Assembly: GCA_021772775.1 (NCBI GenBank)
Contig: JAJFLH010000004.1
Coordinates: 1-64,000 of the forward strand
Direction of reading: 5' to 3'
DNA from: Mariprofundus sp.
GTDB taxonomy: Bacteria > Pseudomonadota > Zetaproteobacteria > Mariprofundales > Mariprofundaceae
Length of the DNA: 64,000 bases
Shown here: in pieces, positions 15,942 to 36,227 of the stretch
Numbering within the stretch: the first letter of the stretch is position 1
Layout: each line of letters begins with the position of its first letter
The notes under the pieces: generated by a model
Told to the model about the DNA's origin: nothing
What the model saw: only the letters and a program-made list of their open reading frames with translations
The model's database searches: none
Translations under genes and position numbers: made by a program

Positions 15942-18331
15942 TGGCTTTCTCCGTTGCTATTTAGATCACGTAAACAAAGGGATACTTTTCCCAGTAGATC
16001 GTTGGCAGTGTTGATGCGCTGATCGGCTTGTTTGGTGAGTAATTCATCAATGAGAAGGCGAATACAATCAGGCACTTCAGTATTATGTTCGCGGATGTCG
16101 ACATGCGGTTGCTTAGCAATTTTATACATAAGCTTTGATAGAGATTCGGCCCTAAATGGGCGAATGCCACTGGTTAGCTCGTATAGCATGACACCGAGTG
16201 AAAATAGATCAGAGCGGCCATCTAGTTTTTTGCCAGATAGCTGTTCTGGTGACATATAAGATGGGGTGCCTAGCACAATGCCGGCTTTTGTTTTACTCGA
16301 ATCAATGATGTGGGCAATTCCAAAGTCAGTTACTTTTACGGTTTTATTTTTTAAAATCATAATATTAGCTGGTTTTATGTCGCGGTGTATTACGTCGTGT
16401 TCATGGGCATATTGTAGTGCTTCAGCAACTTTTCCGACGATCTTCAAAGTGGTGGAAAAGGGTAGCAATCGGCCTTTTCTGGTGTAAGGTGAAAGGTCTA
16501 TGCCATCAAGGAACTCCATAGCAATATAAGCCAGATTTTGTTCGTCACCGGCATCAAAGATAGTGACTATGTTTGGGTGATTGAGCATGCCGGCGATTTC
16601 AGCCTCATGAAAAAACTTGCTTTTCACCTCTTCGACTTCATCGGGTTCAAAGTCCTCTGACAGTGCCATGGTCTTGATTGCAACTTTGCGGTTTATTTTT
16701 GGATCTTTGCCCAGATAGACGGTGCCCATTGCGCCTTTGCCCAATTCGCTGATGATTTCATAGCGTCCAAGCGTACGCTTGTTTTCAGCAGGGATAAGAG
16801 TGGTGGATAATGTTGAGTTGTTGATATGTGAGCTTTCGCCTTCGCTTTTTGCACTGCTGATGCGTGCTTGAATGTTCGGATAGTTTGGTTTGTTTCTGGC
16901 GATATGCTCATACACTGCGGTGGCCAGCGTAAATTGTTGTTTGCGCTCTAAAGCAAGCGCTAGCTTGTCAAATGTAGATAACATATCGTCATTGACGGGG
17001 CAGGCCTGAAATTTTTCAAAAGCTTGTTCAAGCATGCCTTGGTTTTGAAACGAAATGCCCAGTTTTTTGTTGGTTTCATCCATGTTTTTGATGGATTTCT
17101 TTTTGCTTCCTTCACATATATAGGTTTGCTTACAGATTAAAAACAGATGGCCGATGAGCAGCAGTATGGCCGCAGTAATGGTTTGCAGCCATGTGGAATA
17201 ATATAAAAGTGCGAGAAAATCGACACTGATCAATGCGATGAATATCAGGCTGGAAAAGGCGATGCCCACACGAGTTGTGAATTGAGGTAGTGCATAGGCT
17301 AGGTAAAAGCCGATGATGAGTAATAAAACAAGTTCGATGCTATGGGTCCAGGCGGGGCGCTGAAATGCCTGGCTGTGAAGTATGTTTTGTAAGACATGAG
17401 CGCTGAACTCAATGCGAGTCATGGCGTGCTTGCCGGGGGTTTGAAATGTCTGATCGGGATAGGCTTCAATGAGAATGATTTTGTCTTCTAAAGCAGTAGC
17501 TGGAATTTTTCCTTCATATAGCTGATTGAACGAATAGGTTTGAAAGTACGTGTCATTCTCTGCTTGAGGGAGTGAAGGGTATAGGTGGGTTTGTCTGTCT
17601 GTGCCGATTGTTAACGATCCTAACTCAATCTCTTTTCCGGCATGAACTCGAATGTCATTTAGGGGAATATTTAATATTTTAGAGGCAAGTAACAGTGAGA
17701 ATGATGGGAGGTACTCATTGCCATAAGCTATTGTCAGTGCTTCAGACCTGACTATGTCGTCATGGTCTTTGAGGAAACTCATGTGGCCCAGGCCAGCAGC
17801 GACTTCTGTAAACTGTTGGTCGGGATGCGATGTAAGGGTGGCAATACTGCTTTGATGGGGCGAGCTTGTGTTGACGTGCTGTAGCGCCATGGGCTTTAGC
17901 TGTTTTGGCAATCTCGTGCCAGATTGCTGCATGCTTGTGTCGATATCGAAATATACGGGTAGCAGCGTATTACCACTTTTGTAAATGATGTCGACAAGAG
18001 CTCTGTCGGCAGGCGCTTGAGCTATCTCTTTGTTGTTACGGAACCTGCTATCAATTGCAATGAACGATGCATTAGCATCTGTAAGTTTTTCGACCGCTGA
18101 TGTGATCGCTTGCTTGGAGCTAAGGCCAGTTGAAGGGAGGGACTCTGGATTGATGTTGAGAATGATGATTTTTTTGTCACCAGTCTGTGAAGTGCTGGTT
18201 ACGGAGCTATCATAGACTATGTTTTCTATACTTTTTAGTAGGGTGAGTTCCTGTTGAAATGCAATGACAAATAGCAGGGTCAGCGCGGAGCCGATAAACC
18301 AGTCTGATTTCCAGATTGCATGAAGATTCAA
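15938..18331 (-). CDS. CHASE2-domain transmembrane serine/threonine protein kinase
   Basis: N-terminal CHASE2, TM segments, kinase domain (GKGAMGTVYLGKD, HRDIKPANIMI, DFGIA); overlaps PP2C gene. Confidence 0.92.
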   Translation of the reverse strand: MNLHAIWKSDWFIGSALTLLFVIAFQQELTLLKSIENIVYDSSVTSTSQTGDKKIIILNINPESLPSTGLSSKQAITSAVEKLTDANASFIAIDSRFRNNKEIAQAPADRALVDIIYKSGNTLLPVYFDIDTSMQQSGTRLPKQLKPMALQHVNTSSPHQSSIATLTSHPDQQFTEVAAGLGHMSFLKDHDDIVRSEALTIAYGNEYLPSFSLLLASKILNIPLNDIRVHAGKEIELGSLTIGTDRQTHLYPSLPQAENDTYFQTYSFNQLYEGKIPATALEDKIILIEAYPDQTFQTPGKHAMTRIEFSAHVLQNILHSQAFQRPAWTHSIELVLLLIIGFYLAYALPQFTTRVGIAFSSLIFIALISVDFLALLYYSTWLQTITAAILLLIGHLFLICKQTYICEGSKKKSIKNMDETNKKLGISFQNQGMLEQAFEKFQACPVNDDMLSTFDKLALALERKQQFTLATAVYEHIARNKPNYPNIQARISSAKSEGESSHINNSTLSTTLIPAENKRTLGRYEIISELGKGAMGTVYLGKDPKINRKVAIKTMALSEDFEPDEVEEVKSKFFHEAEIAGMLNHPNIVTIFDAGDEQNLAYIAMEFLDGIDLSPYTRKGRLLPFSTTLKIVGKVAEALQYAHEHDVIHRDIKPANIMILKNKTVKVTDFGIAHIIDSSKTKAGIVLGTPSYMSPEQLSGKKLDGRSDLFSLGVMLYELTSGIRPFRAESLSKLMYKIAKQPHVDIREHNTEVPDCIRLLIDELLTKQADQRINTANDLLGKVSLCLRDLNSNGESQ

Positions 18332-18678: not shown

Positions 18679-18712
18679 AAGGGGCCGGTTTATACCGGCC
18701 CCTTTTTTTTGT
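18679..18712 (+). terminator. Terminator after tRNA-Asn
   Basis: aaggggccggtttataccggcccctttttttt. Confidence 0.9.
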
Positions 18713-18780
18713 CTGCTTCGGAGTATTATGACGGAGTCATTCTTCGTAAGATTTGGTGTGAAACTACGTATTGGGCTGAG

Positions 18781-19608
18781 ATGATAGTGATGTTGAGATT
18801 GAAAATATGTTCATTGCTTTGTGTCTTGATGCTGTGTTCATGTGGTGTGGTAAAAGTACCTTTAAAGCCTCAACTTGTGCACGATGTGAGAAGTATTGAA
18901 GTTGCCAGGATTGAGGTGGGCAACTCCTTGTTGATTCGTCGTATGAATCCACTATTTTTTATTATGGGCTCCTCTGGCCTCGTGGCTGATGCTGTTGTGG
19001 CTGCTTCTAACGCCTCAAAATATGAGCAGCAAGCAGGCCCGGTGCATCAAATGTGTGTGGAGCGATTTGAGGAAATATTGATGCAATCATTGTCGCGTCA
19101 AGGTTTTCAGGTTCATTCATCAGGTAAAAGGTTTTGGGATTATTTTAAGGCTAGTCAAAAACCTTTGCGTGAAAGAACAGATGGGCTTCTTCATATTCGC
19201 TTAAGTCAAATGGGGTTTTGGTCAAAAGGTGTTCGTTATGGCTATTATCCGGCGGTGCTGGTTAGTGCTGAATTGATTGACCCAGTGAGTCGAGAGGTTT
19301 TGTTTAGCAATCGTTTTTCGATGGGGATCGATGTTGCCTCGATGAAAGTAATGGCGTTGGCGCATGGGGAAATTAATGTTCAGTTTGAGAATCAGCGTGG
19401 TGCCGCTTATCAGGACTTTGAGTCGTTGTTGAATCAACCAAAGAAAAGTCGTGATGATTTGTTAAGGGTGATGGCTGGCGCTGCCCAGCAGATTAGTGAG
19501 GGGTTGCGGCGGCCAAAAACATCGGTGATGCCGATGTCTGGTTCTGGTTTGATTAAATATATGCCGGGTATGCCTTTGTCAGATCAGGAAGAGGGGCGTT
19601 TTTTTTAA
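18781..19608 (+). CDS. Lipoprotein of unknown function
   Basis: Signal peptide with lipobox LMLCSC; no family recognised. Confidence 0.7.
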   Translation: MIVMLRLKICSLLCVLMLCSCGVVKVPLKPQLVHDVRSIEVARIEVGNSLLIRRMNPLFFIMGSSGLVADAVVAASNASKYEQQAGPVHQMCVERFEEILMQSLSRQGFQVHSSGKRFWDYFKASQKPLRERTDGLLHIRLSQMGFWSKGVRYGYYPAVLVSAELIDPVSREVLFSNRFSMGIDVASMKVMALAHGEINVQFENQRGAAYQDFESLLNQPKKSRDDLLRVMAGAAQQISEGLRRPKTSVMPMSGSGLIKYMPGMPLSDQEEGRFF

Positions 19609-19871
19609 TAGTGTAATTTCCTGGCTTGTAAAAGATGAATAAAGACATCCTTAATGTCATCTTTTGAAGAGCTTCTATTGCGCAACGTTAAAGTTGTCTG
19701 GATGGCGTGGATGGGCTCTCCAATAGTTCGTTTTTTTGTTGAAAAACAATGATATTACAACTCCTATGATGTGTTGTTTCCTTGATTAAATATTTGCAAA
19801 GTTTATGCTCCGGCTTATCTAAAAGTTTATTTTCAGTCGATGAAAAAACTGAGTTAATTGGGGTGGATGGC

Positions 19872-22325
19872 ATGGAGTCTTATGTTCTTGTGTTGAGGCG
19901 TGTGAAGCAGGTTTTGCTTTTGGTGAGTTTGTCTTTGATAGTCGGGATGACAGGTGTCCGTGCTGCTCATGCTGGTGTAGGTGATCGTCTGCAGGTTTCT
20001 GAGGCTGGCGCTGTATTGTATTCAAATCCATCGACCTCGGCTTCGAAGCTCATGAATGTGAATGCTGGCGCTAAAATGGTTGAGATGGTCAGACAAGGTT
20101 CGTGGGTGCTTGTGTCGTTAACCAGTACAGGGACGCAGGGCTGGATGAAGAAAACAGCAGTTCAAAAGGCTACGCGTGGAGCTGCTGCGCCGGTCAAGGC
20201 GATAAAAGAGGCTGTTCAAAAGGTTTCTAGTCTGCCTCCGATGGCGGATACTCCTGTCATGAGCCCTGCGGACTTGATAAGAGTTCCAGAGCCGTTATCT
20301 GGTTCTCCATATACAGCCAGAAGACTTTCCCTGAAAGATATTGGCTTGACCAAGGGGCTCTTGTTTGAGGGGGCGAATGGTGTCCATTCGCAAACATTTT
20401 ATTTTCCTGCTCCGCTTGACTCATTGATTACTCATGGCTCGTTTCGCCTGTTGTTTCGGAGTTCGCCAAATTTGTTGCCTTTAGCGAATGTTCGTGTCGC
20501 CATCAATGATGTGCCTTATAAGCAAATTAACCTGCCTGCAGATGGTGCAATGCATGCCTTGGATGTGCGTTTACCTGCTTCTGCCTTTGATGGTCATTTG
20601 GTGAAAGTGACAGTAGCAGCTATCTTGCCGGTGTCTGAGAATCGCTGTTTCGATGGCCGCTTGAGTGATATCTTTTTACATGTCTTTCCAGAAAGTACGA
20701 TGTCCATCTCCTATCAGGCGGTTGAAAAGTCGATTCGTGATGCATGGCGTATGTTGCCTCAGGAGGTGACGATCAGTCTTTCTGCGGGTCAGTTGGGCAA
20801 GGAACAGTTTGCTTCGGCCCTGGCTCTGATGGCGCTACTGGTGGATGATGGTAAGAAAGTGAAAATTGTGAGGCTGCCTGAGATTGGGGATATTATTGTT
20901 GCTCCCAGAGCATCTGTTGAGCCGCTTGTTGGTCAAGGCGTGTTGAAGGAAAGGCTGGATAAGGAGAGCAACTTAATGTTGGTTCACCTTTCGAACCGGT
21001 CTGCTATTGCACTATTGGATCCATTTGATGTTCAGCCGATGTATCTGTTGGATAATACGTGGAAAATGATTGCTGCTGCTGAACAATATCGCGTATTTAG
21101 GCCTGATAATATACATTCTCGTGTGGAGATGCTGGGTACCGAGGGTGATTCGGGTTACTTCTCCTTGCCTCTATCTAAGCTGGGTATGGATATTGGAACG
21201 AAAGCGTTAAGTCGAGAAGTAAACTGGCATACTGTCGTAAACCCATTTGCTTTGCCTATGGGGACTCAGCCTGAGCTGTTGCATCTTAATATTGTTGCCC
21301 CAGTTCGCTGGACAGATGACCCAACCTATGAGTTATATGTGTTTCTTAATGACATCTTGGTGAAGTCAGCCCGCTTGGATAACAGCGGCATGAAACAGCG
21401 TTTTACGATCAATCTTCCGGTTGAATATCAGAGACAGTTTAACGATATCCGAATCGTTGTTCAGCATGATATAGTGGAGGGGAACTGCGAAGGTACGATG
21501 CCATATGATTATATTCAGGTTACGCCGGACAGTGCTCTGATTGTCAAGTCTACTACAATAGATACGCCGAAAATATTTGCTGATTTAGCGAAGTACTTTT
21601 TGCCTGGCTTTGATACCTATATAGAAGATCTCTATTTGGATGAGCCTGAGCAGATCTTGCATTTAATGGCGCGTTTAGCAGCTGATTTCCCTCTGGTTAT
21701 TGATCATACGCGATTGCATTTCATGGATAGTACTGAATTGCTGCAGCCTGAGGGGCCGTTTGTAGCTGTAGGTCACTTTACACTTAGCGATGATATTAGT
21801 GCCCCGGTCCGTTTTGATAAGGGCCGGGTGAAAATTACGGCGCCAAATGGTGAGGCCTATTTTGATGTGGATCAGCTCTCAAAGGTGACGATCGCACAAA
21901 TTGCCAATGCAACTACGGCATATGGCTTGTGGATTGCGCCATCTGATTCAGAAGACCTTTCTAATATCGAGCGCCTGGAGCTGTCAGAAGATGACGTGGC
22001 ATTTATTGATCTGCATGGTGTAGCTAAAACCCTGGACTCATCTGAGCCGACATTGGCTGAAGTATATTATCCAGATGCTGAAGATTGGTTTGATGTGCTG
22101 GGTAAATACAAATTTTGGTTAATGGTATTGCTGTGGTTCTTGCTGACGATGGTTGTGGTTTATCTCTATCGCATGTCCAGAATGAATAAACTGGCGCGTG
22201 AAGAAGATGATGCCATGTATCAGGCCGATGAAAACCGCATGCAGGGTGAACAGGCCGCGCATATGCATGAAGATCATACGATTCATCCGGGCGGAGAGCT
22301 GGATCACCTTGATGAGAAGCGGTAA
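19872..22325 (+). CDS. SH3-domain protein fused to BcsB-like cellulose-synthase-regulatory-subunit domain (first gene of putative sfz/EPS cluster)
   Basis: Signal peptide at ATG 19872, SH3-like module (AVLYSNPSTSASKLMNVNAGA...GWMKK), BcsB-like region (KDIGLTKGLLFEGANGVHSQTFYFPAP...), C-terminal TM anchor. Confidence 0.85.
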   Translation: MESYVLVLRRVKQVLLLVSLSLIVGMTGVRAAHAGVGDRLQVSEAGAVLYSNPSTSASKLMNVNAGAKMVEMVRQGSWVLVSLTSTGTQGWMKKTAVQKATRGAAAPVKAIKEAVQKVSSLPPMADTPVMSPADLIRVPEPLSGSPYTARRLSLKDIGLTKGLLFEGANGVHSQTFYFPAPLDSLITHGSFRLLFRSSPNLLPLANVRVAINDVPYKQINLPADGAMHALDVRLPASAFDGHLVKVTVAAILPVSENRCFDGRLSDIFLHVFPESTMSISYQAVEKSIRDAWRMLPQEVTISLSAGQLGKEQFASALALMALLVDDGKKVKIVRLPEIGDIIVAPRASVEPLVGQGVLKERLDKESNLMLVHLSNRSAIALLDPFDVQPMYLLDNTWKMIAAAEQYRVFRPDNIHSRVEMLGTEGDSGYFSLPLSKLGMDIGTKALSREVNWHTVVNPFALPMGTQPELLHLNIVAPVRWTDDPTYELYVFLNDILVKSARLDNSGMKQRFTINLPVEYQRQFNDIRIVVQHDIVEGNCEGTMPYDYIQVTPDSALIVKSTTIDTPKIFADLAKYFLPGFDTYIEDLYLDEPEQILHLMARLAADFPLVIDHTRLHFMDSTELLQPEGPFVAVGHFTLSDDISAPVRFDKGRVKITAPNGEAYFDVDQLSKVTIAQIANATTAYGLWIAPSDSEDLSNIERLELSEDDVAFIDLHGVAKTLDSSEPTLAEVYYPDAEDWFDVLGKYKFWLMVLLWFLLTMVVVYLYRMSRMNKLAREEDDAMYQADENRMQGEQAAHMHEDHTIHPGGELDHLDEKR

Positions 22326-22333
22326 TTGCTGTT

Positions 22334-24394
22334 ATGAGCAAAACGCAAGGAGCGGTTAAGGGAAAAATTGGTGAAATGCTGCTGAATGCTGGGCTCATTA
22401 CTCAGCAGCAGCTCGATGAGGCGCTGGCCCAGCAGAGTAGTCAGGGAGGGCGTCTAGGCGACATTATTCTGAGCAAGGGCTGGATGAAAACAACTGAGTT
22501 TTATTCAGTATTGTCTGATCACTTTCGGCGCGGGCGTATTGGTGACTTGCTGCTATCACAAGACTTAATCACCGAAGAGCAGATGGCTGAGGTGCTTGAT
22601 CTTCAGCATATGTGGGGTGACCGTATCGGTGATATCATTCTCTCCAAAGGGTGGCTGTCATCATTTCAGATGGCGGAAGCGCTGGCAGAGCACTTTGATA
22701 AACCGATTGTGAACCTGCTCAAAGATAAGCCGAATTCAAAAATATTGAATCGTGATGATCTCTCCACCTACTCTGAAAATCTTTTTGTCCCTTGGAAACG
22801 TGAAAACGGCCTGTTGAAGGTTGCTCTTGTTGATGTGAATCCAGAGCTTCTTGAGTTAGTGGATAGCGTTGTCAAAGAGCCTTTTGATTTTGTTCTTACT
22901 GCCAAATTTGATGTGATTTGGTATTTGCAAGAGGTTGGCAATATGTTTTACAGTGAAAAAGCTGTGCATGAGTTGGCCAATGTTCAGCCGGAATACTCTG
23001 CGAGTGAGGTTGTTACACCAAAACAGCTGCGCTTTTTGTTTGTCGTTATGACCATAGGCATGGTGTTTTTTGGCTTCTGGCCTGTAACTACTTTTATTGT
23101 GATTATTTTGGCGATTTCAGCATTTTTGATGGTGAATTTTGTGTTACGAATGGTTCTGACTTGGGTTGGGGGGGATCCGCAATTTGATAATACGGTAACA
23201 GATGAAGAGGTGGCAGCGCTGGATGATAAAGACCTGCCGGTATATACGATCATGCTACCGATGTATCATGAAGCATCGACCCTGCCTGCTATCGCTCAGG
23301 CTCTGCGCCAGATCGATTACCCACTCTCTAAACTCGATATTAAGCTTATCCTCGAACAGGATGATGATGAGACGATTGATTGCGCTAAAGAGCTGGGGTT
23401 GGAAGCTATCTTTGAAATCCTGCGTGTGCCGGACTGTTTGCCCAAGACCAAGCCTAAAGCTTGTAACTATGCTATGCACTTCAGTCGTGGTGAATTTGCA
23501 ACAATTTATGATGGAGAGGACGCCCCCGAGGTTGATCAGCTGAAGAAGGCCTTTGTTGCTTTTACGAAAGGCGGAAGAAAAATCGCCGTGATTCAGGCGC
23601 GTTTAAACTATTTTAATGGTAAGGAGAACTGGTTAACGCGTATGTTTACCATGGAGTACTCCTTATGGTTTGACTTTTATCTACCTGCATTGGATGCCTT
23701 GAATATTCCAATTCCTCTTGGTGGGACATCCAATCACTTCCGGATGGATGTGTTGCGTGAGATGGATGGTTGGGATCCCTACAATGTAACAGAGGATTGT
23801 GACCTCGGTGTGCGTTTGGTGCAGTCGGGTTACCGTGTAGGGGTGCTAAACTCCACAACCTATGAAGAAGCCAATAACTCCATTCCAAACTGGATCAGGC
23901 AGCGCTCACGCTGGCTGAAAGGTTATATGCAGTCCTATCTGGTGCACATGCGCACTCCCATTGTTTTTTATCATAAACTTGGGGCTGTTGGCTTCTGGGG
24001 TTTTCAGTTCTTTATTGGTGGAACAATTTTTAGTGCCCTATCGATGCCAATTATGGCGGCGTTTTATATCGTTTGGTTGCTTACACAGACGGCCCTTTTT
24101 GATCCATTTTTCCCTTCAGTCGTACTTTATGTGACACTGTTTAATCTTTCGATCGCCAATGGATTCCTTATTTATCTGTTTATGCTCAGTGGTTTTAAGC
24201 GTAAATATTTTGATCTGATCCCATGGGCGATTACGGTGCCATTCTACTGGATACTGCAGTCATGGGCCTGTTATAAAGGACTGTGGCAGCTGGTGAATAA
24301 TCCCTTTTATTGGGAAAAGACCCATCATGGTCTTACTACATTTGAAGTGGATCATGAGACCGGTGAGGTGTCGGATACTGGTGGGGCGCATTAA
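22334..24394 (+). CDS. Processive GT2 glycosyltransferase with tandem N-terminal MshEN/GspE-N-type repeats (NfrB-like)
   Basis: KIGEMLLNAGLITQQQLDEAL / RLGDIILSKGW / RIGDLLLSQDLITEEQMAEVL / RIGDIILSKGW; GT2 motifs DGED, TEDCDLG, RQRSRW; multiple TM helices. Confidence 0.9.
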   Translation: MSKTQGAVKGKIGEMLLNAGLITQQQLDEALAQQSSQGGRLGDIILSKGWMKTTEFYSVLSDHFRRGRIGDLLLSQDLITEEQMAEVLDLQHMWGDRIGDIILSKGWLSSFQMAEALAEHFDKPIVNLLKDKPNSKILNRDDLSTYSENLFVPWKRENGLLKVALVDVNPELLELVDSVVKEPFDFVLTAKFDVIWYLQEVGNMFYSEKAVHELANVQPEYSASEVVTPKQLRFLFVVMTIGMVFFGFWPVTTFIVIILAISAFLMVNFVLRMVLTWVGGDPQFDNTVTDEEVAALDDKDLPVYTIMLPMYHEASTLPAIAQALRQIDYPLSKLDIKLILEQDDDETIDCAKELGLEAIFEILRVPDCLPKTKPKACNYAMHFSRGEFATIYDGEDAPEVDQLKKAFVAFTKGGRKIAVIQARLNYFNGKENWLTRMFTMEYSLWFDFYLPALDALNIPIPLGGTSNHFRMDVLREMDGWDPYNVTEDCDLGVRLVQSGYRVGVLNSTTYEEANNSIPNWIRQRSRWLKGYMQSYLVHMRTPIVFYHKLGAVGFWGFQFFIGGTIFSALSMPIMAAFYIVWLLTQTALFDPFFPSVVLYVTLFNLSIANGFLIYLFMLSGFKRKYFDLIPWAITVPFYWILQSWACYKGLWQLVNNPFYWEKTHHGLTTFEVDHETGEVSDTGGAH

Positions 24395-25929
24395 TGTCTG
24401 AAGTGAACCTGGCAACACGCCTGCACAAAGAGGATTGGGACTTTTCTCATCATCAGGGCACTTGGCTACTGGTTATACTTACAATGTTGATGATCGGTCT
24501 GGCGATCTGGGTATTATCGAACGGTTTTTTTCTGGAAAGTGCGCTGCAAAGTTGGGCTATTGTGATTTCGGCACTGGGCTCCGATGAAGTGTTGCTTGAA
24601 AATCTGACCATGTTAACACCGCACTTTCCACTGTATCTGCTGATCCCGTTTTATTACATCCCTGGTTTGGATACAGGTGCCGCACCCTATCTGGTCTCCA
24701 TCCTGGCAACGACTACACTGTTATGGTTATGGGCCAGGAACTTACGAGACGTGGATATTACCCAGATGAGGTTGGCGATTGTTGCGTTGCTGATCGTGCT
24801 ACATCCGGCTTTTTTATGGGCAGCAACCTCGGGTGGACATATCTCACTCACCATGATTACATTTTATCTGCTGTATCGTGCGGCGCAGCATATTATTTCG
24901 GATCATGACATTCACTCTTATATTTCGATGGCTGTTGTCTTTGTTGTTTTCTTCTTTATTGATGGTACGGCTATTTATATTTTTGTGGCTTTGATCCCAT
25001 TGATTGTTTTGATCGCTCCAATTCGGGCTATCATGGTGTCACCTTTGAGTCTGTATCTGATTGTGGGTACCCCCTTTGCGTTTGCAATTGGTACATGGGG
25101 TTATATGAACTGGATTTTTGAAGGCAGTTTCTTGTTTTTTATCACCGACTCGGAATCTACCTTTTTGGGCGGCATGCTTGCTATTGATCAATACCCCTGG
25201 TTGCAGAACAATGGAGGTCAATTTTTTAAGCCGTTCCTGATTGCAACGGGTTATTTGTTGATCGCTTACCCGGTATCTATTTATTTGCTCCTGGATACCG
25301 TGGATGATAACCATCGCTTTCGGGCCACATTTGTATTGATGTTGCACCCATTGATTGCGATTGCGCTGGCGACAAGTCAGAACTATCTCACTCATCCATT
25401 TGAAATTTTAGCTCTTGTGAGTGCGGGTTTGATGGCCGAATTGACCTATGTGAAAATGCAAACACAACGTGAGTTCGTGCTGTTGGCTGTTTTTTTGCTG
25501 GTGAGTATTGTGGGTGGCTGGTGGCTGTTTATTGAAACAGCAAGTCCTCCGATGCTGCGTTGGGTGAACGCTATACAAGGTGTGGATACAACGACCCCTG
25601 TGGCCAAAGATGGTGACTATCAATTGGGCAGATGGTTAAATGCCAATCGTCTACCCACCATCATCCATGAACGCAGTGCTTATCGTGTGATTGCAGCCAG
25701 AGGCGATTCAGAGGGGCTCTTGTTGTCCTATTCGCATGGCTTTAAGTCGGCCATGCGTCGACGCATTCCCACAACAGAACAGATTGCTGTTTCTAAACCA
25801 GATACGCTGATGGGTAGACGGGATCTTATGAATATTCGCCATCCGCATCTCTATTCTCATGGTTTGGAAGGTTATAAACGGGTTTATGATAAGTTGGGAT
25901 GGCGTGTTTATCGGCGGAAAGATGCATAA
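24394..25929 (+). CDS. Polytopic membrane protein of unknown function
   Basis: About ten or more hydrophobic segments; ATGT overlap with upstream GT2 gene; architecture reminiscent of GT-C-type membrane proteins but no clear catalytic motif. Confidence 0.75.
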   Translation: MSEVNLATRLHKEDWDFSHHQGTWLLVILTMLMIGLAIWVLSNGFFLESALQSWAIVISALGSDEVLLENLTMLTPHFPLYLLIPFYYIPGLDTGAAPYLVSILATTTLLWLWARNLRDVDITQMRLAIVALLIVLHPAFLWAATSGGHISLTMITFYLLYRAAQHIISDHDIHSYISMAVVFVVFFFIDGTAIYIFVALIPLIVLIAPIRAIMVSPLSLYLIVGTPFAFAIGTWGYMNWIFEGSFLFFITDSESTFLGGMLAIDQYPWLQNNGGQFFKPFLIATGYLLIAYPVSIYLLLDTVDDNHRFRATFVLMLHPLIAIALATSQNYLTHPFEILALVSAGLMAELTYVKMQTQREFVLLAVFLLVSIVGGWWLFIETASPPMLRWVNAIQGVDTTTPVAKDGDYQLGRWLNANRLPTIIHERSAYRVIAARGDSEGLLLSYSHGFKSAMRRRIPTTEQIAVSKPDTLMGRRDLMNIRHPHLYSHGLEGYKRVYDKLGWRVYRRKDA

Positions 25930-26929
25930 ATTTACTATTATTTTGTTTGTGATATCCATGACTGCTTTGATGTCAGGCTGTGCGACGGTGGGCGAGTTGA
26001 AAAATCAATCCATGTTGCGAGGCTTTAATGTGATGCAGCATGAGAATATGGGGTGGACTGAGCCTGAGGCCAGGCGTTCAATCAAGCGCATGGTTCGGCT
26101 TGGCACGAATGCGGCCGTACTCATTAGTTTTCTCGAGCAGGATTCGTTTTCATCACTGAAAGTGAGACACTCTGATGCTGTAACCTTTGAGCAGTTAAAG
26201 AGTGCGATACAATATGCCCATGAATTTGATCTTGAGATCATTCTGAAGCCGCAAATTCTAGTGCATAATGCTTGGGCAAGTGCGATTTCTCATAAGCGGC
26301 AGCGCGATTGGAATCTATGGTTTGAAAGCTATTCAAAACATATTGTGGAATATGCTGAGTTTGCCGCCAGACATAAGGTACAGACTTTTGTTATTGGTAC
26401 GGAGTTATCCAAGGCTTCAGGACATGTTGATTGGCCAAAGTTAATTCGTAAAGTGCGCGCTGTTTTTCCAGGCAAGATTACCTATGCAGCGCATAATGTT
26501 GAAGGCATGCAGGCATTTCAATATTGGCAAGAGCTGGATGCTGTCTCTTTGACACTGTACCCAAGATTAGGGAAGACAGGTCACTATAATGAAATTCAGT
26601 CGTATGTTCAGCAAGAAGTGAGTAAATTACAGCGTGCAGCGCAGTCGATCGATTTGCCTCTCTGGGTTTTAGAGATCGGCATGCCTTCTGCTTATGGAGC
26701 ATCTGCCAAACCGTGGGAGTGGCAGAGTTTAAAACACGCACGCGTTGACCTGAAGGTTCAGCAAGATGCGATTGATGTTTGGTTAAGAGCGTTGGATCAA
26801 TCGTGGGTGGATGGTGTCTTTATCTGGGCTTGGTATAGTGATGTCGCATCTGGTGGGGCAAATGATACGGATTACACACCTCAGAACAAACCAACGGAAA
26901 AGATTATTCGACGTTATTGGAAATTCTAG
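25922..26929 (+). CDS. TIM-barrel glycoside hydrolase-like lipoprotein
   Basis: Lipobox MSGC after ATG 25922; clan-A-like carboxylates in FVIGTELSKASG and LWVLEIGMPSAYG; overlaps upstream gene by 8 bp. Confidence 0.75.
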   Translation: MHKFTIILFVISMTALMSGCATVGELKNQSMLRGFNVMQHENMGWTEPEARRSIKRMVRLGTNAAVLISFLEQDSFSSLKVRHSDAVTFEQLKSAIQYAHEFDLEIILKPQILVHNAWASAISHKRQRDWNLWFESYSKHIVEYAEFAARHKVQTFVIGTELSKASGHVDWPKLIRKVRAVFPGKITYAAHNVEGMQAFQYWQELDAVSLTLYPRLGKTGHYNEIQSYVQQEVSKLQRAAQSIDLPLWVLEIGMPSAYGASAKPWEWQSLKHARVDLKVQQDAIDVWLRALDQSWVDGVFIWAWYSDVASGGANDTDYTPQNKPTEKIIRRYWKF

Positions 26930-26932
26930 AGG

Positions 26933-27874
26933 ATGAATATGAGCAAAGTTACTTTACTTCAGTTATGGCGGCGTCTGGCTGCAACTTTAGTGTTGCTTGC
27001 AGGTTTCATCATTGCGCCTTCAGCCTATGCTGGAGTTGGTATGCTTGGTGGCGGAGAATCACTCTATAACTCCGATCTGGGGATTTCAGGTGGTAATACC
27101 ATTTGGGACGGAACTCGCCAGAGAAACCTGTCGGCCTGTAAACGCCGGAATGCCAATTTAATTCAAGGTTATGAGTATGGTTACTCCTATTTTTACACCC
27201 TTTTTGCCAGTGCAACGATCGCTTATCGTAAATGTGGTGAGATTACTCGCTCCAAGCGTGTTAATCGTGTAACGGGTAATATAACGCCTGCTCAGTCCAC
27301 CCTTGGTGGCAGGTCTCAAGGTCTCGGAGATGTGAGTATCGGCATGAGGGCTCGTTTGAATCATGCAAATACAGCGGCTTGGGAAGTCTCTATGATTATT
27401 CCTACCGGCTATGATGGTAACAGTCCTGCAAGTTTGGGACGCGGAGCTTTGGGGATGTCGCTTGGCATAAAATTCGCGTCTGATGGGAAAGTAAATAAAA
27501 AGAGTTCATGGGCCTGGAATTTAGGCTCAAAATTCAACTTTTTCTTTGCCAGTAAGGGGAACTCTATTGCTTCTTTTGTATCGCTTAGTTATGCCTTTAC
27601 TGAAACAAACTTTGAACAGACTGGTAACTTTTTATCGTTACGCATTAGCAATAGTGTTGCTCTGGCCAGAAATGGAGTGCAGCAGCAACTGTTCTATAAC
27701 CAGGTACCATCGAGTTTAACCAGCAGTGATATTACTGCGCTTACCTTGGGTTATAGCCATGCTTTTCCAGATGGCTGGTCAACGAATCTCCGAGTAGGCA
27801 AGGGGCTCTTTGGTCGAAGCTCTCCCATTGATTATAATGCTGGCTGGGGGGTCAGTTACCGTTGGGAAGATTAA
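26933..27874 (+). CDS. Putative outer-membrane beta-barrel protein
   Basis: Signal peptide ending SAYA; amphipathic alternating beta-like segments through C-terminus. Confidence 0.65.
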   Translation: MNMSKVTLLQLWRRLAATLVLLAGFIIAPSAYAGVGMLGGGESLYNSDLGISGGNTIWDGTRQRNLSACKRRNANLIQGYEYGYSYFYTLFASATIAYRKCGEITRSKRVNRVTGNITPAQSTLGGRSQGLGDVSIGMRARLNHANTAAWEVSMIIPTGYDGNSPASLGRGALGMSLGIKFASDGKVNKKSSWAWNLGSKFNFFFASKGNSIASFVSLSYAFTETNFEQTGNFLSLRISNSVALARNGVQQQLFYNQVPSSLTSSDITALTLGYSHAFPDGWSTNLRVGKGLFGRSSPIDYNAGWGVSYRWED

Positions 27875-30800
27875 ATAATAAGTGGTATCGCTTAGGGGGG
27901 AAGCTGCTTGCATTGTTAGGTTTAGCAATGGCTACTGCTCCAGCATATGCTGCCGAAGGTGATATCTATACTCTGCAGAAAGACTCTAGCCTGCGGCAGG
28001 GCCCGGATAGTTATTATGCTCCAACGAGCAGTGCTAGAAAAGGTGGGCAGGCTATTGAATTGAATAGTTCGGGTGAATGGAAGAAAGTCCGTATATTTGT
28101 TAGCGGTGATGTCGGCTGGGTTTATGCAAATTATCTAGTGCCTGTTGCAGTTGATCCGAAGCAAACTAAAGTCGCTCAGGCCTTCCCTGCTACCACTAAT
28201 GTGAAGGAAAATAGCCTAGATAAGTCAGCTCGGGCGGGAGAAGCAGCTGTTGCGTTAACTGAGTTCGCAAGCCTTCGCTCCGATGCTGTTGTGAAACAGC
28301 CTGAGACATTGGCCGTTCAGGTAGAGCCTGTGGTGCAGAGCATGGCTCCATCGAAAGAGAGTGTAGAGGGAGATTCCGTACCTCCACTGTTTGAGGATGG
28401 AGCGGTATCTCAGGAACCCGTAGAAGTAGAACAATTTAATAATAAGCTAGCCAGCAACTTTTTGGGCAGTAGCAAACCCGCAGCTATCGAGACGAATACA
28501 ATTCAACAGCCTTTAAAGGGAGCAAAGGGCAATGCGACTGGATTTGAACAGTTCCCTGTAGAGTTTTCGACGAGTCAAGCAGGACAGAATAAAGAAGCCC
28601 AAAAGACAATAGAAAAATCGCCAGCTGTAAGTCGTACGACCGATAAATCGCATGCCGTTGGTGTGAAACAATTTTCTGTTCAATTTGCGCAGAGCCCTTC
28701 AGCTGAGGCCGTTTCGCAGTCACCAACAGCAGCAACGAAGCCGAAGTCAATCCCTGCTGATATGAAGAGCAGACCAACGCCAGCTGTAGAGATGACAGCT
28801 TATCCAGTTAAAGCGAAAGAGGTTGCGGAAGATGTGAAACCTGCCGCTGCAGTTGTGATTGATAATAACGAAAGTGGCAATGTCTTAACATCTCAACCAT
28901 TAAGTGATGGTTCACAGCTCGTGAAACAAACTTCAGTGATCAGGGTTGGCCCCAGTGCTTTATCCGAAGTGTTGGGTTGGGCCGGAACAGGTGCAGAGGT
29001 TCAAACTATTCATCAACAGGGTAAATGGATGAAGGTCCGCTTGTTGGATAGTGGCAGAATAGGTTGGGTTGAATCGACCTCACTTGATCTAAGTGGTGCG
29101 ACTACCAGCGTACCGCTGGTGAGGAAGCAGCAGAACACTCCAATAGAGAAAAAACAGCCACAATTAGAAGTGGTAAATATTCTGACTAAACAAGCTCCGA
29201 CGCGACGCAGTGAAGATGTCGGGGGGCTTGAGGATACAGCTGAGCCTGTGACAAAGCGGCCTGCCATATCAAATGAGACAATAACGCCACAGTGGGAAGT
29301 GAAAAATGTAGTGGCAACACCGAAAAAGGCACTAGATAAGCTGGAAAGCAAACCTGATGTTGTAGCTGCTGCAATGATAAAACAGGAAAATCAACCGATT
29401 GAAACGGCGGCATTGCAGGCGGAAGTAACAAATATAGTGGCGGAACCAAAAAAGGCGTTAGAGAAGCTAGAGGGCAAATCTGCGGTTGTAATTGAGCCAG
29501 AAAACAAACCGATTGAGACGGCGCAATTACAACCGGAAGTGAAAAATGTAGTGGCAAAACCAGTAACGGAACTAGATAAACTGGTGAGCCAGCCTGCGGC
29601 TACTGTTGCACTGGTTGAAACGGCAAAACAGCAAAATAGTTTATTGGAGCAAGCGGCGTCACAGACACAAGCAGCAACGGCCATAGCTAAACAATCTCCA
29701 AGTCTGGAGACGGTTATACTTGCACCTGATGCGACGATGGCTAGTGAGAGTCAGTCTGTCCAGAATAATGCGGTTGAATCGGAAAGCGCTGAAAAAGGTT
29801 TGTATAAATTCAATAGAAAAGCCAAGTTGAGATCTGGCCCGAATGTTAGTTTCGATACAGTTTCCTGGGCTGGTGAAGGTTCGAAAGCGACAGAACTTGA
29901 TCGCAATGGTGACTGGGTTCGTATTCAGATGCAGGTCAGTAAGCGCATTGGCTGGGTATATGACCGCTCATTGGATATTGTCAGCCTTGGTGTCTCTGCA
30001 GCAGGGGCAAGCGTAGCTGCTGCAGGAGTAGCTTCTACTCCAATGGTGATGCCTATTAAGATCGGGGGGCCATTTACTCAAGAGTCAGTAGCACTGTCGG
30101 AAGAAACGAAGGCAGAAGCTGATCAAGTGGAGGCACTGGCGGAAATCGCTCAAGTCGAAGCAAAGGTAGAAACTGATCAGGCTGTCGTGGGTAATGCAAC
30201 GGTTTCTACAGCAAGAAATCTGTACCGTTTTAATGAAAAAACGAATTTGCGAGAAGGCGCTGGTGAGCAGTATGACGTTGTTTCATGGGCGGGCCATGAA
30301 GCTTATGCAACTGAGTTGGCGAGAAAAGATGATTGGGTGCAAGTCCAGCTGCAGGCTGGTAAACGCATTGGTTGGGTTCTTCATAGTTCTATGGCGCTGG
30401 TGAACACAGCTGTGAACAGTTCGGCTGAGGGGAGCAAAAGTGCTGAGTCGGAGCTTAAAAAACTAGCCGAGGAGGCAGGGCCTAAACTATATTTCTTTAA
30501 ACGCACAAGTAATTTACGAAAAGGGCCCGGCAAGGAGTATGATCGTATAGCATGGGGCGGTAGAAATGAGGCTGCTGAAGAGATCGAGCGGCAGGGTGAT
30601 TGGCAACATGTTCGCATGACGTTGAATGGGCAAGTTGGTTGGGTGTTCAACGAATATATGCAACGTGCAGTACATCCAGGACACCTTATGGGAGCACCAG
30701 CTCTGCCTGTTGCTGCCGAACCAGTACAACAAGTGGTTGAGAAGCTAGAGCCTGAGAAGCCCGAGCTTGAGGAAGCTAAAGCTGAGGAAGTAGCCGAGGA

Positions 30801-33039
30801 TACAGGCTCTAAACTGTATTTCTTTAAACGCACAAGTAATTTGCGAGCAGGCCCGAGCAAAGATCATGCCCGCATAGCTTGGGGTGGAAGAAACGAAGCG
30901 GCTGAGGAGATCGAGCGAAAGGGTGACTGGCAACATGTTCGTATGAGTTTGAATGGACAAGTTGGTTGGGTCTTTAATGAGTATCTGGTGCGTGCTGTGC
31001 ATCCGGGACATCTCATGGGAGTGCCAGATTTGGTCCTTTCAACACCTGCCAAGAAGGCACAGCAACAAAAGTCAGGGCAGATGTATGAGGTTATGCGGAC
31101 AGAGCCGCTACGGGCTGATGCAGGTGATTTTTCTGAATTAATTGGTTCAGTGCAAAAAGGCGATATTGTGGCATGGCTGGAAGGGCGCAATGGCTGGGCA
31201 CGCGTGAATCCTCAGATTGATGGGAGCAAGGTCGGTTGGATTCAGACGAGCCTTTTGAAGCAAAAGAAACAGGCTAAAGTTGAGCAAACACAGGCGGTGA
31301 TCAGTAATACAAATATCATGGAGTATGCGGATAGAATCTCAAAAGGTGAGACTTTTAATTTCTCATATGCGGCTCTTGAAGAAGCTCTATACAGGGTACC
31401 TGTTGAGGAAATTCATATTCGTCTTCGAAAAACCGATATGGATGCGATTTTCTTAAAGCGCCAGTTCGATCAGTCATCTTTTGATATTCGCTTGACAGCG
31501 GGACGACATAGACTCAAGGGAACCCTGAAGGTGTTGGGTAGTTCGACGCGTATCTTTAAGAAGAAATCGATTATGATTAAATTGGATAAGCAGAGTGCGC
31601 GCTGGTACGGGCACCGAAGGCTGGCATTGCGATCAATGGCATCAGATAAAGCTTTGATGCGAGAGTGGATGGCATGGAAAATGATGGCTGCATTGGGTAT
31701 GAAAGTACCTGAAGTACACTTCACCCGGGTAACCTTCAATAAAGGTGAAAAAACCGCGCTCTATCTATCGGTTGAATGGATGGGCCGAGAGTTCTTGGAG
31801 GGTAATAATTTAGATACACGCGGTGAATTTTATCAGCCGAACGATGGAGCTCATTGTGGTGATTTGTATACTCCGGATACGATGGAGTTGTGCTTTGATA
31901 AGATTACGCCACAGGATGGGGATTACTCTAGCCTTATGGCGATGGCCAAGGCTGTGAATGAAGCAACGAATGAAAATATAGATCAGACTCTGGCTAAATA
32001 TTTTGAGGATGAATCGATTATTAACTGGATCGCTGTCAATGGGCTGGTTACCAATGGTGATACCTACAACAAAAACTATTGGCTCTATTACCATCCCACA
32101 GAAAAGAAATGGACGGTTGTTCCCTGGGATTATAATCTGACCTATGGTCGTACATACGATCAATATTCCACTAAAGCATTTCGAATTTTTAATGATAATT
32201 TCCAGTATTATTATCCGCCAGATGTGGGGGCAGGTAATCCGGTTAAGGATAAGGCATTACGAAACCCTAAACTTCGAACCCGGCTGGAAAATAAAATTAA
32301 ACATTTGATTGGCATGGAGCCTAATGGCTCGGAGCGAACCTTTGGCTGGTTCTCACCAACGGTGATGGAGGCGCGTATTGGAAACCTTGCATCGGTAGTT
32401 GGCAAAGAGGTTTATAAAGACACATTCCTCTCATATGGCGAGGCTGACTTTACCAAGACATATGAATCATTGATACATTATGTCACGGCTCATGATCACT
32501 TCCTTAAGGTGAAGCTATTTGGTGATTTTCCGTGGGAACCGGAGCCACCGAATATGCCATTTATGTTTATGCCAATGCCAGAAGTTTTAACTGGAGAGGG
32601 GCAGATTGATGCTGGTGCTGAATCATTGCATCTGGTTGATCGTGGTTGGGGCTATTTTGTGGGGCGTTTGAATTTGACGGAGCCTTTAAAATCGAAGGTG
32701 GATTTCAAAGTACAAATTGAAGGCGGCATTAAACCAAAATATATACCGGCTTCTCAATCATGGATGCGGTGCATTGAACGATCATGGCTGCTGAGTACGA
32801 AAACAGAGAATGTTTCCGTATCAGGTGATTTTATGGTTGAATATGTTCAGGAAAACTCACGACGTTCTGAGGTTCCACCACAAGTTCATGAAGAGTTGTT
32901 GGAGTTGTGGATGCTGGATGGCAATCGCTGGAAGCCTCTGCAGACAGAAGTGAATGAATACTCCAATACATTGACGGCGAAAAATATAGATGTGAAATCA
33001 GGGCATACATATCGATTTGTAGCTTGTAGTCCATTCTAA
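27862..33039 (+). CDS. Giant secreted protein: seven SH3-like modules plus C-terminal CotH-kinase-like domain
   Basis: TTG start overlapping upstream gene; signal peptide ending APAYA; seven repeats of LR.GP...W.G......GW..V.......GWV; CotH-like NGDTYNKNYWLYYHPTEKKWTVVPWDYNLTYG. Confidence 0.85.
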   Translation: MGRLNNKWYRLGGKLLALLGLAMATAPAYAAEGDIYTLQKDSSLRQGPDSYYAPTSSARKGGQAIELNSSGEWKKVRIFVSGDVGWVYANYLVPVAVDPKQTKVAQAFPATTNVKENSLDKSARAGEAAVALTEFASLRSDAVVKQPETLAVQVEPVVQSMAPSKESVEGDSVPPLFEDGAVSQEPVEVEQFNNKLASNFLGSSKPAAIETNTIQQPLKGAKGNATGFEQFPVEFSTSQAGQNKEAQKTIEKSPAVSRTTDKSHAVGVKQFSVQFAQSPSAEAVSQSPTAATKPKSIPADMKSRPTPAVEMTAYPVKAKEVAEDVKPAAAVVIDNNESGNVLTSQPLSDGSQLVKQTSVIRVGPSALSEVLGWAGTGAEVQTIHQQGKWMKVRLLDSGRIGWVESTSLDLSGATTSVPLVRKQQNTPIEKKQPQLEVVNILTKQAPTRRSEDVGGLEDTAEPVTKRPAISNETITPQWEVKNVVATPKKALDKLESKPDVVAAAMIKQENQPIETAALQAEVTNIVAEPKKALEKLEGKSAVVIEPENKPIETAQLQPEVKNVVAKPVTELDKLVSQPAATVALVETAKQQNSLLEQAASQTQAATAIAKQSPSLETVILAPDATMASESQSVQNNAVESESAEKGLYKFNRKAKLRSGPNVSFDTVSWAGEGSKATELDRNGDWVRIQMQVSKRIGWVYDRSLDIVSLGVSAAGASVAAAGVASTPMVMPIKIGGPFTQESVALSEETKAEADQVEALAEIAQVEAKVETDQAVVGNATVSTARNLYRFNEKTNLREGAGEQYDVVSWAGHEAYATELARKDDWVQVQLQAGKRIGWVLHSSMALVNTAVNSSAEGSKSAESELKKLAEEAGPKLYFFKRTSNLRKGPGKEYDRIAWGGRNEAAEEIERQGDWQHVRMTLNGQVGWVFNEYMQRAVHPGHLMGAPALPVAAEPVQQVVEKLEPEKPELEEAKAEEVAEDTGSKLYFFKRTSNLRAGPSKDHARIAWGGRNEAAEEIERKGDWQHVRMSLNGQVGWVFNEYLVRAVHPGHLMGVPDLVLSTPAKKAQQQKSGQMYEVMRTEPLRADAGDFSELIGSVQKGDIVAWLEGRNGWARVNPQIDGSKVGWIQTSLLKQKKQAKVEQTQAVISNTNIMEYADRISKGETFNFSYAALEEALYRVPVEEIHIRLRKTDMDAIFLKRQFDQSSFDIRLTAGRHRLKGTLKVLGSSTRIFKKKSIMIKLDKQSARWYGHRRLALRSMASDKALMREWMAWKMMAALGMKVPEVHFTRVTFNKGEKTALYLSVEWMGREFLEGNNLDTRGEFYQPNDGAHCGDLYTPDTMELCFDKITPQDGDYSSLMAMAKAVNEATNENIDQTLAKYFEDESIINWIAVNGLVTNGDTYNKNYWLYYHPTEKKWTVVPWDYNLTYGRTYDQYSTKAFRIFNDNFQYYYPPDVGAGNPVKDKALRNPKLRTRLENKIKHLIGMEPNGSERTFGWFSPTVMEARIGNLASVVGKEVYKDTFLSYGEADFTKTYESLIHYVTAHDHFLKVKLFGDFPWEPEPPNMPFMFMPMPEVLTGEGQIDAGAESLHLVDRGWGYFVGRLNLTEPLKSKVDFKVQIEGGIKPKYIPASQSWMRCIERSWLLSTKTENVSVSGDFMVEYVQENSRRSEVPPQVHEELLELWMLDGNRWKPLQTEVNEYSNTLTAKNIDVKSGHTYRFVACSPF
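29280..29610 (+). repeat. Degenerate ~35-45 aa linker repeats within giant SH3/CotH gene
   Basis: Peptide repeats WEVKNVVATPKKALDKLESKP / AEVTNIVAEPKKALEKLEGKS / PEVKNVVAKPVTELDKLVSQP. Confidence 0.8.
30481..31023 (+). repeat. Two near-identical SH3 module units (30481-30696 and 30808-31023)
   Basis: KLYFFKRTSNLRKGPGKEYDRIAWGGRNEAAEEIERQGDWQHVRMTLNGQVGWVFNEYMQRAVHPGHLMG vs KLYFFKRTSNLRAGPSKDHARIAWGGRNEAAEEIERKGDWQHVRMSLNGQVGWVFNEYLVRAVHPGHLMG. Confidence 0.9.
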
Positions 33040-33103: not shown

Positions 33104-34381
33104 ATGAAATTGAATCTTATTGCACAAAATATATGGGAAGATATGAAGAGCGTGGAAGGGCAGGCTACTTTTCGCTTTGCTATTCGACTGTTCCTTATTT
33201 TACTTGCCTATTACCTGATGAAACCTGTCCGGGAAGAGTTGATCCTCGATGGTGGTAGTGCTGAACTGAGGAGTTATGCCCTTGCGGGTCAGGCCGCCTT
33301 ACTACTATTTCTGGTACCGTTCTACAGCCATATCATAAAACATCTGCATGGTGATAAATTATTCCTTATCGTTACCCTCTTTTTGTCGGCCAATATTGGT
33401 GTCTTTTATCTGCTGGGGTCAGCTGGTATGGATATCGGTGTGGCATTCTTTGTCTGGTTGGGGATTTTCTCGGTGGTGCAGATTTCTCAATTTTGGACAA
33501 TGGTTAGTGATTATCACTGTGTTGAAAAGGGCACCAGACTGACTTCCTATATTGCAATCGGTGGTTCGCTCGGTGCAATGATTGGCGCGATGGTTGCCAA
33601 AACACTCTACTTAGAATTGGGTGCCTATGGCCTGATGTTAGTGGCAATTGCGATGCTTATTGTGGCGGTTATTGTTCCAGGTGCCAAGGATGAACTGCGC
33701 AAGGATCATAACGATGATACCGATGATGAGTCGATGAAACATCTTCTGGGCGGCTTGAAGCGCGTGCTGGATGTGCCTTATCTACGCTGGATTGCCGCAT
33801 CGGTTGTATTGCTAAATCTGATTAACTCTACAGGTGAATTTATTCTGGCTGATTTTGTTACTGCAGAATACAGTGGTAAAGATATCGGAGCTTTTTATTC
33901 AACGTTTTATCTCTATGTGAATATCGCGACACTTGTGTTGCAAGCTTTTGTTGTGCGGCCACTGTATCAGGCGATAGGTGTTGGCGGAGCTTTGATGAGT
34001 TTGGCTGTATTTAACCTGATGATGTATATCTCGGTATTGGCATTCCCTGTTCTGGCATGGTTTGCAATCGTGAAAATGGCAGATAATAGTATTGATTACT
34101 CTGTTGCCAATACCACGAAACAGATTCTATTTTTACCATTGGATCGTTTTACACGTTATGAAGGGATGCTGGCAATCAATACATTCTTTACACGTTTTGG
34201 CGACTTGATTCAGGGCGGTATTATTTTCTTGGTGATATCTGTTTTAGCCTTGCCAACCATGATGCTGGTAGGTACAAATATTGTATTGTGTCTGCTTTGG
34301 TTGTTTGTGACGTATAATGTTAGTCAACAGTTCAAAAAACATAGTAAACCATCAAATGAAGTGGAATCAGCTAAGCTTTGA
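33104..34381 (+). CDS. NTT/Npt1-Npt2-like (ADP/ATP translocase-like) or MFS-type transporter
   Basis: ~11-12 TM; YYLMKPVREELILDGGSAELRSY resembles the bacterial NTT-like family. Confidence 0.7.
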   Translation: MKLNLIAQNIWEDMKSVEGQATFRFAIRLFLILLAYYLMKPVREELILDGGSAELRSYALAGQAALLLFLVPFYSHIIKHLHGDKLFLIVTLFLSANIGVFYLLGSAGMDIGVAFFVWLGIFSVVQISQFWTMVSDYHCVEKGTRLTSYIAIGGSLGAMIGAMVAKTLYLELGAYGLMLVAIAMLIVAVIVPGAKDELRKDHNDDTDDESMKHLLGGLKRVLDVPYLRWIAASVVLLNLINSTGEFILADFVTAEYSGKDIGAFYSTFYLYVNIATLVLQAFVVRPLYQAIGVGGALMSLAVFNLMMYISVLAFPVLAWFAIVKMADNSIDYSVANTTKQILFLPLDRFTRYEGMLAINTFFTRFGDLIQGGIIFLVISVLALPTMMLVGTNIVLCLLWLFVTYNVSQQFKKHSKPSNEVESAKL

Positions 34382-35879: not shown

Positions 35880-36227
35880 CCGCTAAACTGGCTTCATAGA
35901 TCTTGGCTATGAACAATGGTGGCAATGGAAACATTGTCGCCATTTTTTTATTGGTCACAGATCGTTAGTTAAATCAATGTTGTTGGTGCAATGCCTTGGC
36001 AGCTATAAATCAACGTCACTCCAGCTTGCTTTTAGCCGGAATCTAGCGAACTGAAAGCGGCATTTACCTTGCCTGAGAAAACCACTCAAGAAGAAGGTGA
36101 ATGCCGGTCAGGTGACAGTGAAGCCAGGGAGCCCCCCCTGTGAGGGAAGGCAGAGAAGCATACCCTGGGGGCTGACGAATAATCGACCTTCCAGTATGTT
36201 GATGTAAATTCGAAAATAAAGGCAATA

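Follow-up and report, generated by a model that had tools for sequence, protein, structure and literature searches.

We analyzed a 64,000-nt stretch of Mariprofundus sp. DNA (contig JAJFLH010000004.1, positions 1 to 64,000; hereafter the window) that carries a cluster of six co-directional genes corresponding to sfz1-6, published by Koeksoy et al. (2021; PMC8250860) as a candidate cluster for twisted-stalk formation in Zetaproteobacteria. All six open reading frames (ORFs) were located on the forward strand at 19782-33039, where an earlier sequence-only reading had placed them with overlaps or gaps of a few bp. The cluster and the features that follow it are:

19782 to 22325, forward strand: sfz1, signal/anchor plus SH3-like and BcsB-like periplasmic protein with a C-terminal transmembrane segment (predicted)
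22334 to 24394, forward strand: sfz2, tandem MshEN domains and a membrane, processive-type glycosyltransferase family 2 (GT2) domain
24394 to 25929, forward strand: sfz3, polytopic protein of no family, with a weakly GT-C-like fold
25922 to 26929, forward strand: sfz4, putative lipoprotein of family GH113; start re-assigned from 25859
26933 to 27874, forward strand: sfz5, predicted 12-strand outer-membrane beta-barrel, COG4313/FapF-like
27862 to 33039, forward strand: sfz6, secreted SH3x7-CotH protein; TTG start, signal peptide by inspection
33104 to 34381, forward strand: NTT/TLC-like carrier of the major facilitator superfamily, putative substrate ('ATP-ADP antiporter' in PMC8250860)
34461 to 35879, forward strand: manC, bifunctional mannose-1-phosphate guanylyltransferase/mannose-6-phosphate isomerase (TIGR01479, E 6e-169)
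35915 to 35944, forward strand: terminator-like hairpin, 13-bp stem followed by TTTTT, likely unit end

The six ORF products are 847, 686, 511, 356 (335 from the 25922 start), 313, and 1725 aa long, and the genes measure 2544, 2061, 1536, 1008 (from 25922), 942, and 5178 bp. They are joined in order by an 8 bp gap, a 1 bp overlap, an 8 bp overlap (with the 25922 start), a 3 bp gap, and a 13 bp overlap. For sfz4 the start at 25922 is likelier than that at 25859 because the product then begins with a lipoprotein-like signal; with this start its length falls in the published range. The six gene lengths lie within or near the ranges given for sfz1-6 in Table 2 of PMC8250860 (1067-2576, 2051-2084, 1499-1535, 971-1037, 929-983, and 3311-7352 bp), where the domain contents are listed as BcsB; MshEN/'EpsE'-GT2; unknown; glycosyl hydrolase; unknown; and SH3+CotH. 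Profile matches to BcsB (E 2e-18), MshEN (E 7e-7), GT2 (E 2e-21), GH113 (E 5e-45), SH3_3 (E 8e-46), and CotH (E 4e-47), together with the barrel prediction for Sfz5, agree with the domains that the sequence-only reading had named. Its proposal that these genes are sfz1-6 or a close relative was borne out by order, lengths, domains, and neighbors alike: membership of the sfz cluster is next to certain, and the cluster is assigned to the stalk-type form, from a Mariprofundus species.

In PMC8250860 the genes after sfz6 are an 'ATP-ADP antiporter' and a 'phosphomannose isomerase', and the stalk-formers CSS1 and EBB1 retain only these two of five conserved neighbors. In the window the carrier lies 64 bp past sfz6 and manC 79 bp past the carrier, and the first credible terminator after sfz6 is the hairpin at 35915-35944. 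The earlier reading of one transcription unit stands for the six genes together but not for an end at 33039, since the carrier and ManC come next; the unit probably runs past sfz6 to the terminator at 35915 and comprises eight genes (sfz1-6, the NTT-like carrier, and manC). A sigma-70 promoter scan was uninformative (21 found versus 32 expected).

We then surveyed 78 genomes of the class Zetaproteobacteria. Sfz3 was found in 17/23 Mariprofundus genomes, in one genome (G002) of another family in the order, and in 0/51 other genomes of the same family; three further Mariprofundus genomes hold cluster fragments on broken contigs. The G002 cluster is probably whole but split over two contig ends, with sfz1-2 on one and sfz3-6 plus ntt on the other. 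The clusters fall into two types. Type A, which includes the window, shows 63-83% Sfz3 identity and encodes Sfz6 with 6-13 SH3 repeats; type B has 46-48% Sfz3 identity to the window, and its Sfz6 carries CotH and zero SH3 repeats in all copies. The types separate in the Sfz3 tree (A 98/99, B 87/98), and the Sfz2 tree groups A at 94/94 and leaves B unresolved. The gene order of the window recurs in type A loci of related genomes, so the six-gene arrangement is not due to chance. Identity to other stalk-type members, set against a benchmark of about 50-70% or more for the cluster, was 54-72% for Sfz1, 70-79% for Sfz2, 63-82% for Sfz3, 53-74% for Sfz4, 42-69% for Sfz5, and about 42-54% over the aligned part for Sfz6, with Sfz5 and Sfz6 below 50% in some.

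Two single-contig genomes of type B, G046 (2,537,610 bp) and G048 (2,301,665 bp), agree in size with those of CP-5 (2.54 Mb) and CP-8 (2.30 Mb), both dread-formers. The two types track biomineral type where it is known, and the presence of the SH3 array sets stalk-type clusters apart from dread-type ones. The source had been inferred to be either a stalk- or a dread-former; for the cluster itself this could be narrowed, as by sequence the window copy belongs to the stalk-type group and not to the dread-type one. Local G+C of the window (46%, versus 46.7-46.9% in the EBB1/CSS1 group) and its nearest relatives suggest kinship with that group; one of the genomes in the same genus as the window, G058, was recognized by an identical contig sequence as Mariprofundus sp. 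OFTM13. Both types occur in single genomes, namely G050 (contigs C4 and C3) and G057 (C66 and C47, with an additional copy on C24). Completeness of G050 is 99% and contamination 1%; 7 kb beside its second-type cluster read N, so that the apparent absence of ntt there carries no weight. The text of PMC8250860 mentions neither copies nor duplication of sfz.

Sfz1 matched BcsB at the E-value given above and SH3_3 below the cut-off. With an N-terminal signal/anchor and a single C-terminal transmembrane segment (778-796), it is predicted to lie in the periplasm. The RxxD motifs of Sfz1 described in PMC8250860 were considered as a cyclic di-GMP (c-di-GMP) sensor and rejected as the likely one, because a periplasmic Sfz1 is unlikely to meet c-di-GMP. 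A sensor of another kind is predicted at the N-terminus of Sfz2:

22364 to 22522, forward strand: first MshEN-type c-di-GMP domain of Sfz2, 53 residues (11-63), NF053729
22535 to 22693, forward strand: second MshEN-type c-di-GMP domain of Sfz2, 53 residues (68-120), NF053729; match to MshE 5htl, E 6e-8
23243 to 23920, forward strand: GT2 catalytic domain of Sfz2, residues 304-529, with DDD, TED, and QRSRW motifs

This N-terminus matched NF053729 with 109 bits (cut-off 38) in two stretches and contains four 24-residue motifs of the form RLGxx(hh)xxG(hh)xxxxLxxxLxxQ (definition from PMC5013675), two per MshEN domain, with conservative variants at some positions. The same region is read in PMC8250860 as an EpsE-like type II secretion system (T2SS) domain with a possible ATPase or translocation function. 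No Walker A motif (GxxxxGK[ST]) was found throughout Sfz2 and the profile search gave no ATPase domain; with two MshEN domains present instead, the EpsE/T2SS ATPase label was ruled out. The profile search found no PilZ match in Sfz2 either, unlike BcsA. By analogy with E. coli NfrB, an MshEN-GT2 synthase switched on by c-di-GMP (PMC8669469), Sfz2 is a putative c-di-GMP-gated GT2 polymerase. The NfrB model NF008411 itself gave 45 bits on Sfz2, under its cut-off of 1170, and the MshEN domains of Sfz2 are N-terminal.

Searches of Sfz3 and Sfz5 profiles against Pfam and PDB sequences returned no meaningful match, and both proteins were examined by predicted structure. The Sfz3 model (pLDDT 59.6) had OST, ArnT, PglB, and PimE as top fold matches, all at E>0.02. 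Sfz4 matched the GH113 family (Pfam PF22612) with 154 bits (cut-off 27), and its closest solved structures are beta-1,4-mannanases (5ylh, E 6.5e-26). Candidates for the acid/base and nucleophile Glu are found in GTEL at 180 and LEIGM at 271, each aligned with a stretch of 5ylh that contains Glu. By these matches Sfz4 is a member of the GH113 (beta-mannanase) family and a putative hydrolase; the GH10 assignment of PMC8250860 was rejected in view of the GH113 E-value and the mannanase structure. A GH113 Sfz4 together with ManC hints at a mannose-containing polymer; a literature search on stalk lectins and mannose returned no papers.

Sfz5 is predicted to form a 12-strand barrel (pLDDT 73) that begins at residue 42, directly after the signal peptide. 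In the fold search the COG4313 channel 4rl8 was the best match (E 1.6e-12, TM 0.67/0.77), followed by FapF (E 3e-10), and the model suggests that Sfz5 folds like the COG4313/FapF outer-membrane channels. FapF chains occupy much of the top fold matches after COG4313 and sfz5 overlaps sfz6 by 13 bp, which would suit export of a protein (e.g., Sfz6 or an amyloid-like subunit) in the manner of FapF instead of a polysaccharide. We regard this as improbable: the best match is the COG4313 channel and not FapF, no FapF-like N-terminal plug/coiled-coil domain is predicted in Sfz5, no fap-like genes were seen, and related barrels adjoin MshEN-GT2 genes without CotH (loci L069 and L074).

Sfz6 consists of two recognizable parts behind its signal peptide:

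27973 to 31266, forward strand: SH3 array of Sfz6, seven SH3_3 domains, residues 38-1135
31528 to 32502, forward strand: CotH kinase-like domain of Sfz6 (PF08757, E 4e-47), both catalytic Asp conserved

The profile search and a separate count agree on exactly seven SH3_3 repeats. Among solved structures, the CotH domain matches that of spore-coat CotH (PDB 5jd9/5jda). The catalytic aspartates of B. subtilis CotH are D228/D251 (PMC7821199), and the Asp pair, at the same 23-residue spacing, is invariant in 19/19 Sfz6 proteins. That invariance, which extends to the copies without SH3 repeats, bears on whether Sfz6 acts purely as a structural wall or polymer binder through its SH3 array, the CotH domain being inactive as a kinase in situ. 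SH3_3 repeats usually bind wall or glycan, and no ATP supply outside the inner membrane is known. Stalk-forming Betaproteobacteria lack Sfz6 (PMC8250860), therefore Sfz6 is not universally required. Against the conserved Asp pair, these points make a purely structural Sfz6 a serious contender that still falls short of an even chance. The window's genome encodes a second SH3-repeat protein (L002, G000:C18:30007-30801) with 28% identity to the Sfz6 repeat region, in a match that includes no CotH domain.

A kinase in this position would need ATP, for which the neighboring carrier could be a source. One bolder proposal is that Sfz6, as a secreted Fam20C/CotH-type kinase, phosphorylates itself or the matrix beyond the inner membrane, that the phosphates template Fe(III) oxyhydroxide, that ATP for this crosses the inner membrane through the NTT-family carrier, and that the SH3 array decides between the shapes of stalk and dread. 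An NTT orthologue is present in 21/78 class genomes, comprising all 19 CotH-bearing genomes and 2 without detected CotH (broken assemblies), and the other 57/78 lack both; the CotH gene and the carrier are adjacent even in G002, from another family. Relatedness of the genomes inflates this co-occurrence. Outside the class, 12 CotH loci from the same phylum were examined and the carrier was near none of them, which gives no support to a general association of CotH with an NTT carrier. The carrier matched PF03219 with 32 bits (cut-off 21) over residues 309-410 only, had no NCBIfam match, and found no relative in PDB by sequence, so that its homology to true ATP/ADP carriers appears partial and ATP transport is putative. 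A literature search on CotH in biomineralisation returned no papers. We consider this proposal a long shot; if true, bacteria would have a counterpart of the biomineralisation that phosphoproteins control. A distant NTT-like paralogue (23-27%) was seen in ten Mariprofundus genomes (G046, G047, G048, G049, G051, G052, G056, G062, G065, and G066) and was not found in the window's genome.

Outside the Zetaproteobacteria, G352 (locus L069; another family, G+C 63%) carries adjoining genes for BcsB, an MshEN-GT2 protein (48% identity to Sfz2 over 618 aa), a homologue of Sfz3, a response regulator with GGDEF, a barrel resembling PF13557, and GH113, with the regulator mid-cassette and the barrel at the place equivalent to sfz5; CotH was not found in G352. 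Homologues of sfz1-4 in the same arrangement occur in G401 (L100) and G434 (L101). Thus sfz1-5 resembles a more widespread polysaccharide cassette under c-di-GMP control, which the Zetaproteobacteria seem to have extended with CotH/SH3 and the carrier, and since the core occurs without CotH outside the class, it is by itself no stalk marker. These cassettes, the biofilm role of xag genes in Xanthomonas (PMC3609779), and the presence of the cluster in dread-formers would all fit a general c-di-GMP-controlled biofilm/adhesion polysaccharide system (Xag/Nfr-like), with the stalk matrix made elsewhere and the correlation arising since attached Mariprofundus make both. However, within the class the cluster is confined to Mariprofundus and one relative, its two sequence types follow biomineral type where known, and PMC8250860 records it for every one of 11 stalk-formers but for no former of amorphous oxides. 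We judge the biofilm explanation unlikely, with a chance that should not be neglected, and a role of the cluster in stalk formation probable.

Our best reading overall, held with moderate confidence, is that the stalk-type sfz unit of eight genes produces the organic matrix of the Fe(III)-oxyhydroxide stalk and carries it out of the cell. Candidate parts of an extracellular-matrix route are present, as claimed earlier; that the route is complete we can only infer. ManC would supply GDP-mannose, and c-di-GMP binding to the two cytoplasmic MshEN domains of Sfz2 would, as in NfrB, switch on the GT2 polymerase. Sfz1 would guide the chain across the periplasm in BcsB fashion, Sfz3, if it is a GT-C enzyme, might conceivably attach lipid-linked sugar side groups, and Sfz4 would trim the chain as a GH113-type hydrolase. 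Export would take place through Sfz5, the predicted exit channel in the outer membrane, and secreted Sfz6, with its SH3 array and CotH-type kinase domain, may organize or modify/phosphorylate the matrix, on which the iron mineral would form. Taken as a whole this stepwise scheme is tentative. Several points weigh against stalk-matrix synthesis by the cluster: no sfz gene has been linked to stalks by experiment or genetic test, stalk-forming Betaproteobacteria lack sfz5 and sfz6 (PMC8250860), His replaces the consensus Gln at the end of MshEN motifs 2 and 4 in Sfz2, the weak GT-C resemblance of Sfz3 depends on a low-confidence model, the window's genome has two further ManC copies, and three genomes of another family, for which stalks are not expected, have the sfz1-4 core.

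Upstream of the cluster lie two further features:

18679 to 18704, forward strand: terminator-like hairpin, 11-bp stem with 8 GC pairs and a TTTTTT tail, probable upstream boundary
18709 to 19608, forward strand: putative lipoprotein, accessory, no Pfam match

Homologues of this lipoprotein lie upstream in some related loci only (L027, L028, L029, and L038). Divergent from the cluster is a CHASE2-Ser/Thr protein kinase gene (15938-18331, reverse strand; Pkinase E 3e-55, CHASE2 E 7e-30). Elsewhere in the window, by reading only, a large NMT1-like + PAS + GGDEF + EAL protein (45994-49554, reverse strand) and a pair of periplasmic-binding protein and hybrid histidine kinase (58090-62538, forward strand) are each a possible c-di-GMP or signalling input in the neighborhood of the cluster.

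Twisted iron stalks serve as signs of ancient microbial iron oxidation, although the genes behind them are still unproven. With the refined parts list the question of stalk formation becomes more accessible to testing (c-di-GMP binding, kinase, mannanase, channel). The SH3-array difference offers a genomic means of telling in advance whether stalks or dreads are formed, and given the core cassette in other bacteria, sfz1-4 alone should not be used as a stalk marker.

Compared with sfz1-6 of PMC8250860, the window has the same six genes, order, lengths, domain content, and NTT and phosphomannose-isomerase neighbors; it comes from another species and keeps just two of the five conserved neighbors, as in CSS1/EBB1. 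The domain calls are revised here (MshEN, GH113, COG4313/FapF-like barrel, and CotH kinase), and new with respect to that work are the MshEN, GH113, and barrel-fold findings, the CotH aspartates and SH3 contrast, the two-type genomes, and the core outside the Zetaproteobacteria. The dread-type homologues of M. aestuarium CP-5 and M. ferrinatatus CP-8 share all six genes and their order, as well as ntt and manC, but have only 46-48% Sfz3 identity and an Sfz6 without SH3 repeats. The NfrBA-YbcH system of E. coli (PMC8669469) likewise has MshEN fused to a GT2 membrane synthase and an outer-membrane partner; MshEN is C-terminal in NfrB, whereas Sfz2 has two copies at its N-terminus; NfrA is a TPR-barrel, and the E. 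coli system lacks BcsB, GH113, and CotH. XagABCD of Xanthomonas and the 'xag-like' sfb genes of Ferriphaselus (PMC4643136) form a GT2-centered operon with xagBCD-like proteins for a biofilm polysaccharide, a likeness at the level of gene content, and the sfb genes come without sfz5/6 (PMC8250860). The BcsAB cellulose synthase shares the BcsB-like partner and the processive-type GT2; by comparison, Sfz2 lacks PilZ, GH113 takes the place of the GH8 enzyme BcsZ, and there is no BcsC-type TPR porin. The CotH spore-coat kinases (PDB 5jd9/5jda) share with Sfz6 the kinase-like fold region and the two catalytic Asp, whereas Sfz6 is predicted to be secreted from a Gram-negative cell and is fused to an SH3 array.

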